A stretch of DNA of 32,644 bases, from NCBI GenBank assembly GCA_028719245.1, contig JAQUKG010000008.1, positions 1 through 32,644 on the forward strand, in the 5' to 3' direction. The notes below the pieces were generated by a model. It was not told the origin of the DNA and searched no databases. It saw nothing but the letters and a program-made list of their open reading frames with translations. Numbering within the stretch: position 1 is the first letter of the stretch; every line of letters begins with the position of its first letter. This document shows, piece by piece, positions 10,163 through 32,644 of the stretch. The DNA comes from Candidatus Altimarinota bacterium. Its GTDB lineage: Bacteria; Patescibacteriota; Gracilibacteria; BD1-5; UBA6164. Both the position numbers and the translations under genes were made by a program.

Positions 10163-11689
10163 ATGAAAACATTAAATAAAAAAGGTTTTACACTTGTTGA
10201 ATTAGTAGTCGTTATAACTATAATAGCAATATTATCAACAATAGCATTTGTATGATATCAACAATATTTCTGAAATTCAAGAGACTCAAATAGAGTTCAA
10301 ACTATGCAAAATATAGAAACATGATTACAATTAGCATATTCAAAGACAAGAAAATATCCAATACCAGAAGAGAATATAAGTATAAGTGTAAGTGGAACAA
10401 TAACATGATATCAATGATATTTTTGAGATAATGGTTCAAAAACAATTTTAATGAATACAACACCACTAGATCCATTAGATAATGTTAGGTATACATATTC
10501 AACAAATGCAAAATATAAAAAATACCAATTATTAACATTTCTTGAATGAGATAGTCAAACAGCATATAATCCAATAATAAACCAAACATATGCTCTAGAT
10601 TATACAGATAGAATACCACAAGAATATTGAAGTTCTTTATGAATATTATTGGATACAAATAATAATCCAGTTCAAAGCTTAGGTTCAAGTATAGATTTAC
10701 TTTTATGACAAGCTGGAACTCAATACAAAGCAGTTATATCAAATTCAACAACAATAACATGAAGTTGAGTAAATTTGTGATGAGCTATTTTGACATTATC
10801 ACAAAGTTCAAGTTTTGCAGCACCAATTACTTGTCCAACTTGATTTATACCAGTTCCATGAAATGAAACATTTATGCAACCTGGATTTTGTGTAATGAAA
10901 TATGAAGCCTGATCTCCAACACAATCTGATGCAACTTGGGCATGATTACCATATGCATCTTTAACTTCTCTACCACAATCAATATGATGAAATTATCCTA
11001 TTATTACTTTAACACAAGCACAAGCAATAACTGCATGTCAAAGCATATGAGTTTGATACCATTTGATAACAAATAATGAATGGATGACAATAGCAAGAAA
11101 TATAGAATCACAAAAAGATAATTGGAGTGGTTGAGCTGTATGAAGCTGATGAGTTTATAGATGAATAACAAATGAAACTACTTCTGCAACTAGTCTTTGA
11201 TGTCCTACATCATCTAGTACTTTTAAGGTTAGTACCAAATATGCAGCTTGAACTTCATCAATGGATACTACATTGTGGTGAGCAAGTAAGTGAAGTGATT
11301 GTGATAGCAAAAGGCAATTAAAATTATCAAATTGAGAAGTAATATGGGATTTATCTGGAAATGTTCAAGAACATGTAAATAAATTTAATGTTATAGATTG
11401 AACTAATTATAATTCATGACAAACAGTTATAGCTTGAAGTAGTGCTTGAACAGCTTGGGATGGGGATTGAATATATACTACATCAGATATGCTAAAATAT
11501 GGTTCTATATCTTCATTATGAATTGCAAATGGTATGTGAAATGTAAATTATGCAAACTGAGTTGCTTCTAATATATTTATTCGTTGAGGTAATGCTCTTT
11601 CTACTACTAATGCTTGAATTTATACAATTGACTTAATTTGAAACTCTACTACTAGTGCGAATACAACTGGATTTCGTTGTGCTAAATAA
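10163..11689 (+). CDS. Type IV pilin-like protein with C-terminal FGE/C-type-lectin-like domain
   Basis: The 508-residue product starts MKTLNKKGFTLVELVVVITI, a classic prepilin signal (cleavage after the Gly of KKG, then F-T-L-x-E and a hydrophobic helix). The pilin/pseudopilin head follows, with GYQGYFGDNGSKT and PLDPLDNVRYTYS. From about residue 230 the C-terminal half resembles the formylglycine-generating-enzyme (SUMF1) fold: GFCVMKYEAG, HLITNNEWMTIARNIES, NGEVIWDLSGNVQEHV and RGGNALS ... TTGFRCAK at the very end. Nothing shows enzymatic activity; a ligand-binding tip on a pilus-like fibre is the likelier role. A close relative of the N-terminal part begins at 31973. The gene has its own terminator, so it is monocistronic. 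Confidence 0.85.
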
Positions 11690-25335: not shown

Positions 25336-25608
25336 ATGGCTCACAAGAAAGCTCAATGAGCGACTTCCAATGGTCGTGATTCTAATGCTAAAAGACTATG
25401 AGTAAAAATTTATGGTGGTCTTGAAGCTAGAACTGGAAATATAATTATAAGACAAAAATGAAATAAATTTTGGCCAAGTGAATGAGTTTCACAAGGTAAA
25501 GATTTTACTTTATTTGCTAATAGAGATTGAGTGGTTTCCTTTAGTGAAAAAAGAAAAGTAAAATTTGATGGAAGAATTTATAGAGATATTTATGTTTCAG
25601 TAAAATAA
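25336..25608 (+). CDS. rpmA: 50S ribosomal protein L27
   Basis: L27's N-terminus reaches the peptidyl transferase centre. The 90-residue product begins directly MAHKKAQGATSNGRDSNAKR, then LGVKIYGG, so there is no Firmicutes-type cleaved leader. It continues NIIIRQKGNKFWPSEGVSQG and KDFTLFANRDGVVSF. It normally sits with rplU and obg. Here it follows rpsG by 33 bases and ends the operon. Confidence 0.97.
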
Positions 25609-25738: not shown

Positions 25739-28700
25739 TTAAATTATTTTTTCTTTTTTTAAAATTATAAAACTTAAAATTAAGAACAAACTAAAAGTAA
25801 AAAAACTAAGTAGAATATTTTTAGTTAAATCCTTGTTTTGTTCTCAATTATCTGCATAAGTTACTGGTAATATATTTATTTTTTCTATTTTTAAAAGTTC
25901 TTTTTTATTTAAATTATTTTGAGAAATATTTTCTTTTTTGATTTTTCATTCAATTTCAACTAAAAAGTAAGATATATCTTCATCTTGTAAATCACTAATT
26001 TTTAAAGAAACTATATATTTTCAAGTTTTAAATTTTATGGAAGCTGGATTTGATTTAATAGAAGAAATTCAATTTCAAAAATCCCAAAAATATCTTTTTA
26101 TATCTCAAGTTGAATTTCTTCAATCAAAATTTATATTACATTCTTCAGCATTTTTACAAATAATTTTATTTCCAGATACTCAAATACTTTTTGCTAATTT
26201 CTGTAATGTGATATTTGATTTTAGTTTTTCTAAAGGTTTTGATTTCTTTGAAATTTTAACTTCTTTAGAAAAATTTATATATTCTAAATAATCATTATCT
26301 ATATCAAAATTAGAAATATTATCAAGTTTTACAGAATGATTTTCATCAACTTTTAGATAACTTTTAACTTCAAATTCTCATAAATCAACTTTATCTAAAT
26401 TTATTTCATAATTTCATTTTTCATCAGAAATTGTTTCAAAATAATTGTTTTCTGAAGCAAAAGTTTTTAAAAATAAAAATGAAGTTTCTTGAATTTTTTT
26501 ATTTAACTCAATTATTATTATTGTATTTGGAAAAGTCTTTCAATAAATCTTTATTCAAGATTTTTGTTTTTTGATTTTCTGAGTGAATGTTTTATTTATT
26601 ATTTCTTTTATTTTTGTTGTATTTAATCCAGTTCAAGTTTTCATATTCTCTAAATTTTGAGTTATTAAATCTTTTACTTTTATTGGATTTTCTTCTATTA
26701 TTTCAATTTTATTATTATTTCTATAAACACTAAATCATTCTGGAATATTAAAATCCCATTTTAAATTATCAATTAAATCTCAATTACAAACCAAATTTAC
26801 TTCATCTGGAGAAGTATTATTTAAATTAATATTAGTATCTAATTTAAAAAATTTAATTGATTTTCAAGAGTTTAAAATTATATCTTTTTGTATTTTAAAA
26901 GGTTTTGATCATCAATTAATTTTGTCATCTAACTCACAATTATTTAAATTTATTTCTCAACTTCAAGTATTTGTTATTTCAATATATTCTGCATAATCAA
27001 CTCAAGTAGGATTTGGTATAACTTTTGAAATTTTTAGAGTGTAATTTTGTAAATTTATAAAATCTTTTTTTTCATTATTTTCTTTTAAATCTTCATTTTC
27101 TATAACCTTTACAAAAAAATCATCTTCTCAAAAAAGTCAATTTTCGTCAATTACTTTTAAAATTATTTTATATTCTCAAATTTTATAAATAATTGATTTT
27201 GGATTTACTCAAGTTCAAGAAGTTCAATTTCAGAAATCCCATAAATAATCTAAATCAAGTCAGTCTAAACTATAACTTTTTTCTCAATTAAAATTCACAC
27301 TACATTCGCTTCAATAACAAGTTAAATAATTATTTGATAAACTTTTATTTTTTCAAACAGTTCATTCCAAAATTATTTTTGAGACTGGTTTATTTCAAAT
27401 TTCTTTTGTATTTTCTTCAATATTTATATTTTCAAAATCTTTTTTTAGGTTTTTAAATTCTATAAAATTCTCTTTATAATTTCATTCATTTCCAGCTTCA
27501 TAAACTCTTAAAGTTGCTTTAAAGTTTCAGAGTGGATATTTTATATATCAAGGATTACATTTTTTGTCGGTTCAAATATCAAAACTTCATCCTGGAAAAA
27601 ACCATAAACAAGCTTCTTTTGAATTTTTTGGTTCGTATGATAAATTTAAATTACAATCATCTTTTTTACAATTATTATTTTCATCAAGTCAGCTTTGAAT
27701 AATAATTTTTGGAGTATCAATATACATGTAATTCACTATAGTTATTCAACCTCCTCATCATCAAATATAAACAGTTTTTATGTTTTCAGGTTCTTTATAT
27801 CAAGAATTAATTATTTTCAAGTTTTTTAGCACAAAATTATTTGGATTTGCTATTTCACTAATTTTATAATTTATCTCATAAGTTCATTCAGGAAAAGTAA
27901 TAGTATTTGGATTACATTTATATTTTTCCTCTATAAATTCTGCAAATCAAAAATTCCATTCACAATTATATTTTGTATTTGGGATTGTTATTAATCAACT
28001 TCAAAAATCTCAATTTAAATTAAAATTTACTTTACAATCAGTTTCGGAAGTTAAACAATTATATTCACTAATTTCTTGATTTTTTTCAGATAAATAAGTT
28101 GGATTTTGAAAAAGTAATTTTATCGTAAAATTTGGTAAAATAACTCAAGTATTTATTAAAGTTCAAGAATTTTCTAAACTTCAACTTTCACTTAAAGTTC
28201 AAGAATTTGATAATTCTCAAGTTCAAGTTTCTATACTTCAGGTCTGAGTATTTTCTAAATTTCCAGTTCAAGTTTCTATACTTCAAGTATTTGTATTTTC
28301 TTCATTTCAAGTATTTATAATATTTTCTTTAAAATAAACATTCTTATAATTATTAAAACTAGTTGTATATAATAATTTAATCTCATTTCATAAATCATCA
28401 TAAATTCAAACTCATGCATTTGTTTTCAATCTTAAATGACTTGAAGTTAAGTTGTTAATTATTAATCAAGTTGAAGAATTATCTTGTTCAACTAAATTTA
28501 TTCACAAAATATTTCCAGATAAATAAAATCAAGAAAATATATTATTTCAAGAAACTCAATCAAGTTTAGAACTTGATAATCATCAAGTATTTGAATATAA
28601 AAACAATTTAGAAAAATTTATATTTCAACTCAAAGTTTTGTTAAATTCTATTTCTAAATTATCTATTTTTCAATTATTATTTAAATCTGAATAATATAAA

Positions 28701-28792
28701 TTATTTTCAGATAAGCTAATATCAGATAAAACAAATAAAAAATGTGATATTACAAAAACAAAAAAAATTAATAAAAAAGTCTTTTTAAACAT
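25739..28792 (-). CDS. Large surface-anchored protein with PKD-like and lamin-tail-like domains
   Basis: The 1017-residue product starts at ATG 28792 with a signal peptide (MFKKTFLLIFFVFVISHFLF). A Ser/Thr/Gly-rich low-complexity stretch follows at about residues 155-215 (NTGNEENTNTGSIETGTGN). Four immunoglobulin/PKD-like units follow, near 260, 400, 520 and 900, each opening with a cysteine pair (for example CYGSECSVNF, CKNAEECNINF) and ending near W-D/N-F (LWDFGNG, FWDFGNG). At about residue 590 a lamin-tail-like domain begins (LKISKVIPNPTGVDYAEYIE, then ITNTGSGEINLNNC). The C-terminus is a membrane anchor (NILLSFFTFSLFLILSFIIL) with basic KKEKII. It probably acts in adhesion or host contact. 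No catalytic motif is seen. Surface proteins of this build are common in candidate-phyla bacteria, but I do not recognise a named family for the whole. Confidence 0.8.
28221..28285. repeat. Short direct repeat inside the surface-protein gene
   Basis: A 20-base unit at 28221-28240 recurs exactly at 28266-28285. Both encode ETG-type Ser/Thr/Gly segments. The ACT-TGA (Thr-Gly) pattern recurs through the linker region 28130-28330. Confidence 0.6.
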
Positions 28793-28858
28793 AATATTAA
28801 AATTAAAAATAATTAACTTTTACATTATATTTACCATATATTAATTTTTTATTAATTT

Positions 28859-29263
28859 TTATGAGATTTTTTTAAAAAGATTGTTTATTTCAAGAATATA
28901 TTCTTTTGATTTCTTTATTAAAGCCCTTTCTTCAAGTAAATCAAAATCATGAGCAAGTTTATTTCTTAACTTATGTAATTCCCAAACTTTATCAATATCA
29001 CTTATTATTTTTGGTTCTTGTTTTAATATTTCTCAAAAAGTTCAAATATATCAATAGGATAACAGTATTTTATGAAAAAGTTTATCGGCATCAATAATCT
29101 TTTCTTTACTTGAAATATTTGTTGAGATTTTTTTTAATATTTTTTGAAATTCTATAACTTGTGACTTTGAAAGTTTTTTTTGCTTTTTTAAAGAAATGAA
29201 AAATCAAAAATATGAAATTATTAAAATTAGTATTATAGAAATTACAATTCAAAAATATATCAT
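28859..29263 (-). CDS. Membrane-anchored small protein with HEPN-like R-x4-H motif
   Basis: The 134-residue product begins MIYFGIVISIILILIISYFG, one N-terminal transmembrane helix followed by a basic stop-transfer KKQKK, leaving a cytosolic domain. That domain is helical and ends with KVWELHKLRNKLAHDFDLLE, in which R100-x4-H105 matches the R-x4-6-H signature of HEPN-type domains. HEPN domains are often RNases or nucleotide-binding helical bundles. No partner nucleotidyltransferase (MNT) gene is adjacent. I recall similar single-TM proteins as common hypothetical proteins in candidate-phyla genomes; function unknown. The stop lies 66 bases upstream of the surface-protein start, so the two may form one transcript. 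Confidence 0.6.
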
Positions 29264-29295
29264 ATTAATTTTATTAAGATATTTAAAGTAAAATT

Positions 29296-29322
29296 ATTAT
29301 ATTTCAAAAATAATAAAGTCAA
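29296..29322 (-). promoter_or_regulatory. Promoter of the minus-strand surface operon
   Basis: On the minus strand TTGACT (29322-29317), 15 bases and TATAAT (29301-29296) precede the ATG at 29263 by about 32 bases. Confidence 0.5.
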
Positions 29323-31972: not shown

Positions 31973-32644
31973 ATGCAACTCTCAAATAAAAATATCATAA
32001 AAATATTCCTCAAATCCCTAAAACCCCAAAAAGCATTTACTTTAGTAGAATTAGTAGTAGTAATAACAATAATAGCAATATTATCTACAATAGCATTCGT
32101 ATGATACCAACAATATTTTTGAAATTCAAGAGATAGTAATAGACTTCAAACAATGTGAAATGTAGAAACATGATTACAATTAATATATTGAAAAACAAGA
32201 AAATATCCAACACCAGAAGATAATATAAGTATAAATGCTAGTTGAACAACTATGATATATCAATGATATTTTTGAGATAATAGCTCAAAAACAATAAATA
32301 TGAATACTATACCTCTAGATCCATTAGATAATATTAGATATACATATTCAACAGATGTAAAATATAAGAAATATCAATTACTTGCATTTATGGAATGAGA
32401 TAGTCAAACAGCATATAATCCAATAATAGATAAAACATATGCAATAGATTATACAGATAGAATACCAAAGATATATTGAAGTAATTTAATGTGAACAATT
32501 GTTGATACAAACAATAATCCAATTCAAAGTATAACATCAACTTGAATAGATTTACTTACAACAAATAGTTGAACTGTTTATAAATTATTATTAAGTAGTG
32601 GAAGCTTAACAGCTTCTTGAAATATTATATATCAATCATTAAAT
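31973..32644 (+). CDS. Second type IV pilin-like protein (partial, runs off window)
   Basis: The 224 visible codons encode a close relative of the pilin at 10163. They share FTLVELVVVITIIAILSTIA, then FVGYQQYFGNSRDSNR, PLDPLDNIRYTYST and GDSQTAYNPII. Here the leader is longer and basic (MQLSNKNIIKIFLKSLKPQ), and the residue before FTLVE is Ala (QKAFTLVE), where prepilins usually have Gly. Divergence increases after about residue 180. Whether a lectin-like domain follows cannot be seen. It may share a transcript with the small gene 19 bases upstream. Confidence 0.85.

Follow-up and report, generated by a model that had tools for sequence, protein, structure and literature searches.

A small membrane HEPN protein conserved across Patescibacteria and frequently encoded within the gat operon

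The window analysed here is the whole stretch of 32,644 nucleotides of contig JAQUKG010000008.1 from Candidatus Altimarinota bacterium (assembly GCA_028719245.1; contig C8 of genome G000, which comprises 113 contigs and 1.35 Mb). It carries two adjacent genes, encoding a small membrane protein and a large cysteine-paired protein with PKD domains and a lamin-tail domain (LTD), which the original prediction, made from the DNA letters, had regarded as a possible contact-sensing or defence-related pair. Judging from its modelled fold and its conserved residues, the small protein is a member of the HEPN superfamily with an intact catalytic-type signature. Its family was found to be Patescibacteria-wide and mostly single-copy, and outside the window's class the gene usually lay inside the operon for the tRNA-dependent amidotransferase GatCAB. 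The reading that we favour, with confidence a little above even, is that of a membrane-tethered, translation-linked HEPN ribonuclease that possibly acts on tRNA, the PKD/LTD neighbour being separate from it.

Both genes are on the minus strand, pointing away from the rsmH gene (TIGR00006), and are open only when UGA is read as a sense codon; the large gene contains 72 UGA codons. The L27 gene at 25336-25608, above the cut-off of TIGR00062, includes five in-frame UGA codons at positions that we take to be glycine in other L27 proteins. Reading UGA as glycine (code 25) suits this protein. Most of the named relatives found were Candidatus Gracilibacteria. The features of the small gene are as follows.

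28859..29263, minus strand: membrane HEPN gene, 134 amino acids, code 25 (open reading frame, ORF, read with UGA as glycine)
29192..29260, minus strand: predicted N-terminal membrane helix, residues 2-24, followed by the K/R-rich KKQKK (model, and hydrophobicity in the family)
28862..29167, minus strand: predicted HEPN domain, residues 33-134 (model and fold comparison)
29084..29086, minus strand: Asp60, the upstream acidic residue (D in 121 of 123 homologues)
28949..28975, minus strand: putative active-site signature H97-K-L-R100-N101-K-L-A-H105 (H97, R100, N101 and H105 in 123 of 123 homologues)
29293..29322, minus strand: weak promoter-like match to the consensus ahead of the HEPN gene, of little meaning in AT-rich DNA

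The structure of the small protein was predicted from 34 sequences, namely the window protein and matches of close Gracilibacteria patterns, and the model (mean predicted local distance difference test score, pLDDT, 90.6) consisted of a helix at residues 2-24 and a helical domain at 33-134. In the Foldseek search with this model, HEPN and HepT chains ranked first. Among the first 14 rows of the VIA-align comparison, with Z scores of 8.8-10.9 over 98-106 residues, ten were titled HEPN, HepT or Csm6, and the remaining four (1wty, 1jog, 1ylm and 5yep) are presumably also HEPN-type. HepT structures among them were 8xdj_A (Z 10.9, root-mean-square deviation (rmsd) 2.9, 103 residues aligned) and 8xeh_D (Z 10.7), and Csm6 was represented by 6tug_H (Z 9.1, rmsd 3.2, 105 aligned).

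The conservation of individual residues was examined in 123 homologues, 63 from the window's class and 60 from the rest of the phylum. H97, R100, N101 and H105 were invariant in all of them, and W94, D60 and K98 were conserved in 122, 121 and 120 members, respectively. All 60 sequences from outside the class retained R-N-x3-H, and 59 of them the longer pattern W-x2-H-[KR]-x-R-N-x3-H. The ribonuclease site of HEPN proteins, as described in passages of Anantharaman et al. 2013 (PMC3710099), comprises R-x4-6-H, a polar residue after the arginine and an upstream acidic residue. All three features were conserved here, as R-x4-H, the polar N101 and the acidic D60. The proposal of a small protein with one membrane helix and an R-x4-H pattern, possibly of the HEPN type, thus agreed with helix 2-24, with R100-N-K-L-A-H105, with the modelled fold and with the invariance of the arginine and the histidine.

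The profile search suggested in the original prediction gave the expected families at low scores. At E <= 0.1, the 63 class members matched cas_csm6 (22/63, best 6.5e-7), HepT-like (8/63), HEPN_Cthe2314 (6/63) and Swt1-like (3/63) families, and the profile of the family placed its RN-x3-H on the RN-x3-H of Csm6 6tug (E 0.072). The HEPN domain of Csm6 is thus similar in fold, in the aligned motif and as the best NCBIfam match, whereas the window protein scored 25.4 bits against a family cut-off of 150, and the match covered only positions 287-406 of 433, which we take to be the HEPN part of cas_csm6. Furthermore, a length of 134 amino acids leaves no room for the CARF domain of Csm6, and the small protein has a single membrane helix instead.

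By a threshold of our own, a hydrophobic helix was recognised in 98 of the 123 members, and 90 of these 98 carried more positive charge on the C-terminal side of the helix. Because of this charge pattern, the HEPN domain should lie on the cytoplasmic side of the inner membrane. A transmembrane helix with a cytoplasmic HEPN domain is shared with the membrane HEPN groups in the account of PMC3710099, where the membrane-associated bacterial groups were proposed to process RNA on the inner side of the membrane. In contrast to the DUF4145-type group, which has a WP signature in the helix according to that account, WP was found in the first 45 residues of none of the 123 members, and the extra helical domain or Zn ribbon reported there for two other groups would find no room in 134 amino acids.

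The distribution of the family was investigated with a profile of the 63 class sequences against 285 Patescibacteria genomes. Matches were detected in 174 genomes, one in each of 161 and two in each of 13. Among the 153 matching genomes outside the window's class, 60 loci were picked by hand for family spread and better scores. In 52 of these 60, gatA preceded HEPN on the same strand, at a distance of up to 1.2 kb in 46 loci and up to 100 bp in 30. gatC was found in 44, gatB downstream in 43, and gatA and gatB together in 42, the commonest order being gatC-gatA-HEPN-gatB. Seven loci had neither gatA nor gatB by this count, one of which (L245) showed both by clustering. One representative of each gat gene scored above the cut-off of the NCBIfam equivalogs TIGR00132, TIGR00133 and TIGR00135. 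As a control, 19 gat loci of HEPN-negative genomes were inspected: none of the 18 with a labelled gatA contained a HEPN gene (best E 0.042, for an ORF on the opposite strand), and gatB, where labelled, was the next gene after gatA or the second next. The distances of HEPN and GatA were also correlated (n = 53, r = 0.27, reached in 0 of 999 permutations).

Two further arrangements were observed in the phylum. In three loci of phylum family f37 (L252, L259 and L264), HEPN was flanked by a large and a small protein, secreted-looking by eye, and not by gat genes. In L250, L263 and L292, a second and longer HEPN-family ORF (203-236 amino acids), a possible paralogue, was located downstream of gatB.

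Within the window's class, 67 loci were compared with flanks of about 7 kb where contigs allowed, together with 19 further loci with 1.5-kb flanks. With the gat profiles, gatA and gatC were found near HEPN in none of the 67 or the 19 loci. gatB was near HEPN in two of the 67 (L114 and L126) and in six of the 19 (L206-L209, L215 and L223; L207 and L114 are from the same genome). A complete departure of the class from the gat operon was thereby ruled out. As this HEPN-gatB remnant persists, the gat position is suggested to be the older one, and the loci with gatB and without gatA (L206-L209, L215, L223 and L126) possibly represent an intermediate stage in leaving the operon.

Other genes recurred beside HEPN in the 67 class loci. 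hflX, encoding a ribosome-splitting GTPase (TIGR03156 in one representative), was upstream in 14, within 20 bp in ten (L066, L068, L075, L077, L078, L082, L089, L092, L095 and L098) and at about 1.1 kb, with a single intervening gene, in four (L067, L083, L090 and L093). A membrane protein with a PH-like domain was encoded upstream on the same strand in 16 loci (L114-L116, L119, L120, L122, L123, L126, L064, L073, L081, L087, L091, L097, L100 and L101), adjacent in 15. When three representatives were scanned, one was above the bPH_2 cut-off, one just below and one without a match. The PH-like protein occurred in code-11 and code-25 members of the class, the code-25 copies being extended, by eye, by a conserved C-terminal part. 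Among the other recurring neighbours were lepA, rpsB, tsf and map (representatives above cut-off), an S1-like protein (below cut-off) and YbaB. Translation genes recurred near HEPN both within the gat operon and elsewhere, which is consistent with a link to translation.

Under the favoured reading, the product would be a single-pass inner-membrane HEPN protein with D60, H97, R100-N101 and H105 on the cytoplasmic side. It would act as a metal-independent endoribonuclease, tethered to the membrane and active as a dimer like other HEPN RNases, on tRNA or on RNA being translated. Its gene would be co-expressed with that of the amidotransferase that repairs Glu-tRNA(Gln) and Asp-tRNA(Asn). In the window's family the gene is located outside the gat operon, in several genera beside hflX. 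The modelled fold, the invariant residues, the distribution and the gene order are observations; RNase activity, dimerisation and the tRNA or translation target are what we infer here.

Several observations weigh against this reading. The E-values of Foldseek were weak, with 0.12 as the best, and VIA-align cautions that best Z scores of about 14 occur for helical models that have no clear relatives; the sequence signature matters for this reason. The r of 0.27 is modest, and 25 of the 123 members were without a clear membrane helix by the threshold mentioned above. None of the loci from the window's own family had a gat gene near HEPN by the gat profiles, and the gatA of G000 is on another contig (C61). 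Moreover, 111 of the 285 phylum genomes were without a HEPN match, yet gatA was present in 279, which shows that GatCAB does not need HEPN.

A more specific proposal is that HEPN serves as an accessory of GatCAB at the inner membrane, where it would cut misacylated or uncharged tRNA(Gln) or tRNA(Asn), or the RNA being translated with these tRNAs. Such cleavage would couple the amide and glutamine supply from the host to translation; Patescibacteria are mostly auxotrophic episymbionts. We put this forward tentatively, as a possibility well short of even.

The protein could instead be a non-catalytic membrane adaptor, the HEPN surface of which binds tRNA or GatCAB and tethers the transamidosome to the membrane. 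The position in the gat operon and the membrane helix in 98 of the 123 members would suit this role, and motif-less HEPN domains were proposed to be non-catalytic binders of nucleic acids in passages of PMC3710099. The same source infers inactivity upon loss of the motif, whereas the arginine, asparagine and histidine were invariant in the present family, and many genomes have GatCAB without HEPN. We consider the adaptor unlikely; that no member has lost the motif makes us prefer a catalytic role over simple tethering.

A further possibility for the small protein, either a HepT-type toxin from a HEPN-MNT toxin-antitoxin system or an abortive-infection toxin acting alone, is quite improbable. 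HepT toxins were among the closest folds and share R-x4-H, and in HepT the tyrosine of H-x-Y is AMPylated by MNT. That tyrosine, two residues after the histidine, was found in 0 of the 123 members, so that none of them showed R-x4-H-x-Y or H-x-Y. The genes flanking HEPN in the window are rsmH and the PKD gene, and no MNT gene adjoins it there (the window alone was considered for this, with no MNT profile run on the other loci). The membrane helix and the broad single-copy distribution also differ from HepT. Among 99 relatives, HEPN was detected in 67, with one match in each. Phage records searched with the window HEPN protein gave no match, nor did plasmid records searched with one HEPN homologue. 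The single copy and the missing phage and plasmid matches are unlike a mobile defence or toxin gene, and the defence-related role raised in the original prediction was not supported.

The second gene, separated from HEPN by 66 bp with no terminator-like site in the gap, encodes the PKD/LTD protein with the following features.

25739..28792, minus strand: gene for an exported-looking PKD/LTD surface protein, 1017 amino acids (ORF read with UGA as glycine, and Pfam)
28727..28792, minus strand: N-terminal signal peptide or membrane helix of the large protein (by eye)
27803..28120, minus strand: unit 1, predicted four-Cys immunoglobulin (Ig)/PKD-like domain, C246/C253 and C277/C293 (Cys positions and model)
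27428..27709, minus strand: unit 2, predicted four-Cys Ig/PKD-like domain, C375/C380 and C395/C412 (Cys positions, model and fold comparison)
27113..27331, minus strand: unit 3, PKD domain with C492/C497 (Pfam and Cys motif)
26756..27040, minus strand: lamin-tail domain with C619 and C669 (PF00932, 8.3e-11)
25973..26170, minus strand: unit 4, PKD domain with C879/C885 (Cys motif; Pfam gave two PKD stretches, with coordinates shown for the better one only)
25760..25819, minus strand: C-terminal hydrophobic stretch of the large protein, residues 992-1011, followed by KKEKII (by eye)

All 14 cysteines of the large protein could be placed in pairs, which are presumably disulfides. As had been predicted, four units each open with a close pair (246/253, 375/380, 492/497 and 879/885); further pairs are 277/293 in unit 1, 395/412 in unit 2 and 619/669 in the lamin-tail domain. 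The PKD-like nature proposed for all four units was borne out by Pfam for units 3 and 4, with two stretches each for PKD_4 (61.9 bits against a cut-off of 27) and PKD (42.3 against 23.5), the best at residues 496-555, and LTD was called at residues 585-679 (42.7 bits, cut-off 34.3). The Pfam scan gave no PKD call in units 1 and 2, for which only the model pointed to two beta-sandwich domains (pLDDT 81.1, predicted template modelling score (pTM) 0.47, from 16 sequences). Ig-like, cadherin-like and PKD chains tied as the nearest solved folds of these units, with tandem adhesin domains also among them, and a collagenase PKD domain was among those nearest to unit 2 (Z 7.7, rmsd 2.9, 89 aligned). 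Z scores of about 7-8 may reflect no more than a shared sandwich architecture, and the comparison hardly covered unit 1.

The cysteine pairs are not a product of chance, given that 37 of the 38 listed non-redundant homologous ORFs from Gracilibacteria relatives contained at least one pair of the same pattern. From its hydrophobic start and end (by eye) and its cysteine pairs, the large protein is probably exported, membrane-anchored, adhesin-like and disulfide-stabilised. By the presumed topology, the HEPN domain would be cytoplasmic and the Cys-paired domains would face outwards. In size and PKD domains it resembles large surface proteins of the candidate phyla radiation (CPR), e.g. those of Vampirococcus (PMC8080830); the words 'cysteine' and 'lamin' do not occur in the main text of that paper, whereas the Cys-paired units recurred in the Gracilibacteria relatives compared here. 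In 8 of the 25 loci compared (L087, L091, L094, L097 and L134-L137), the gene immediately upstream of the Cys-paired PKD/LTD gene encoded a glycosyltransferase (Glycos_transf_2 by Pfam in one representative), which might be related to glycosylation of the surface protein.

The idea of a contact-sensing or defence pair, in which contact perceived by the PKD protein outside the cell would switch on the membrane HEPN RNase inside it, was examined with the presence and the position of both genes. The PKD protein was detected in 91 of the 99 relatives, where matches in distant members may be to single domains. Both genes were present in 62 relatives, HEPN only in five, PKD only in 29 and neither in three; 61.6 with both were expected (Fisher P = 0.71), and the co-occurrence analysis thus indicated independent presence. 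A PKD/LTD-type gene followed HEPN on the same strand in 5 of the 67 HEPN loci, from five genera (the window, L065, L075, L077 and L078, the last with an unassigned 93-amino-acid ORF between the two genes). These five adjacencies would probably exceed random placement, and the short gap without a terminator in the window is also in favour of a pair. On the other hand, three of the five loci share the order hflX-HEPN-PKD and may therefore represent one inherited order, and across the rest of the phylum HEPN is usually inside the gat operon. Adjacency elsewhere, which the original prediction had made decisive, was formally seen in 4 of the 66 other HEPN loci, but HEPN and the closest PKD homologue were apart in the three further genomes that belong to the window's genus, lying about 48 kb from each other in G001 and on separate contigs in G002 and G003. 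Six loci from one genus of the window's family had the PKD gene a few kb upstream of HEPN instead, before lepA. With no co-occurrence beyond chance, no conserved adjacency and no match in phage or plasmid records, the contact-sensing pair was rejected as highly improbable, and the HEPN-PKD adjacency is probably a local gene order kept in part of one family, not a functional pair.

The surroundings in the window were compared through rsmH, using 30 loci, of which one (L174) is that of the window and 29 came from relatives. An L27 or PKD gene was absent from the 1.5-kb flanks (shorter at contig ends) of all 29, and the position of HEPN/PKD between rpmA and rsmH looks peculiar to G000. Elsewhere in the window, two paralogous type IV pilin-like genes with the N-methylation motif were observed at 10163-11689 and 31973-32644, their N-terminal parts being very similar. 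The former directly follows rplO (named by eye); in the standard spc operon, secY is expected after rplO.

Titles, abstract starts and passages of the literature on HEPN, CPR protein families and GatCAB did not describe the family or its link to gat, and no paper joining HEPN with HflX was found in the literature searched. The passages of PMC3710099 on membrane HEPN groups mention no gat operon link. The main text of Meheust 2019 (PMC6744442) mentions neither HEPN nor amidotransferase, and the family may stand unnamed in its supplementary tables. What is new is a family of known kind, the membrane HEPN proteins, whose genomic location was not expected and is widely conserved.

HEPN RNases are mainly known for their part in defence and toxin systems. 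The HEPN gene described here seems to be widespread and single-copy in a huge radiation with reduced genomes, and is often located inside a translation operon. The case also illustrates that adjacency to a surface-protein gene in a single genome can mislead about function. If tRNA is cut, HEPN would have a new role in housekeeping, and the finding would offer a testable clue to tRNA charging in episymbiotic CPR cells fed amino acids by their host.

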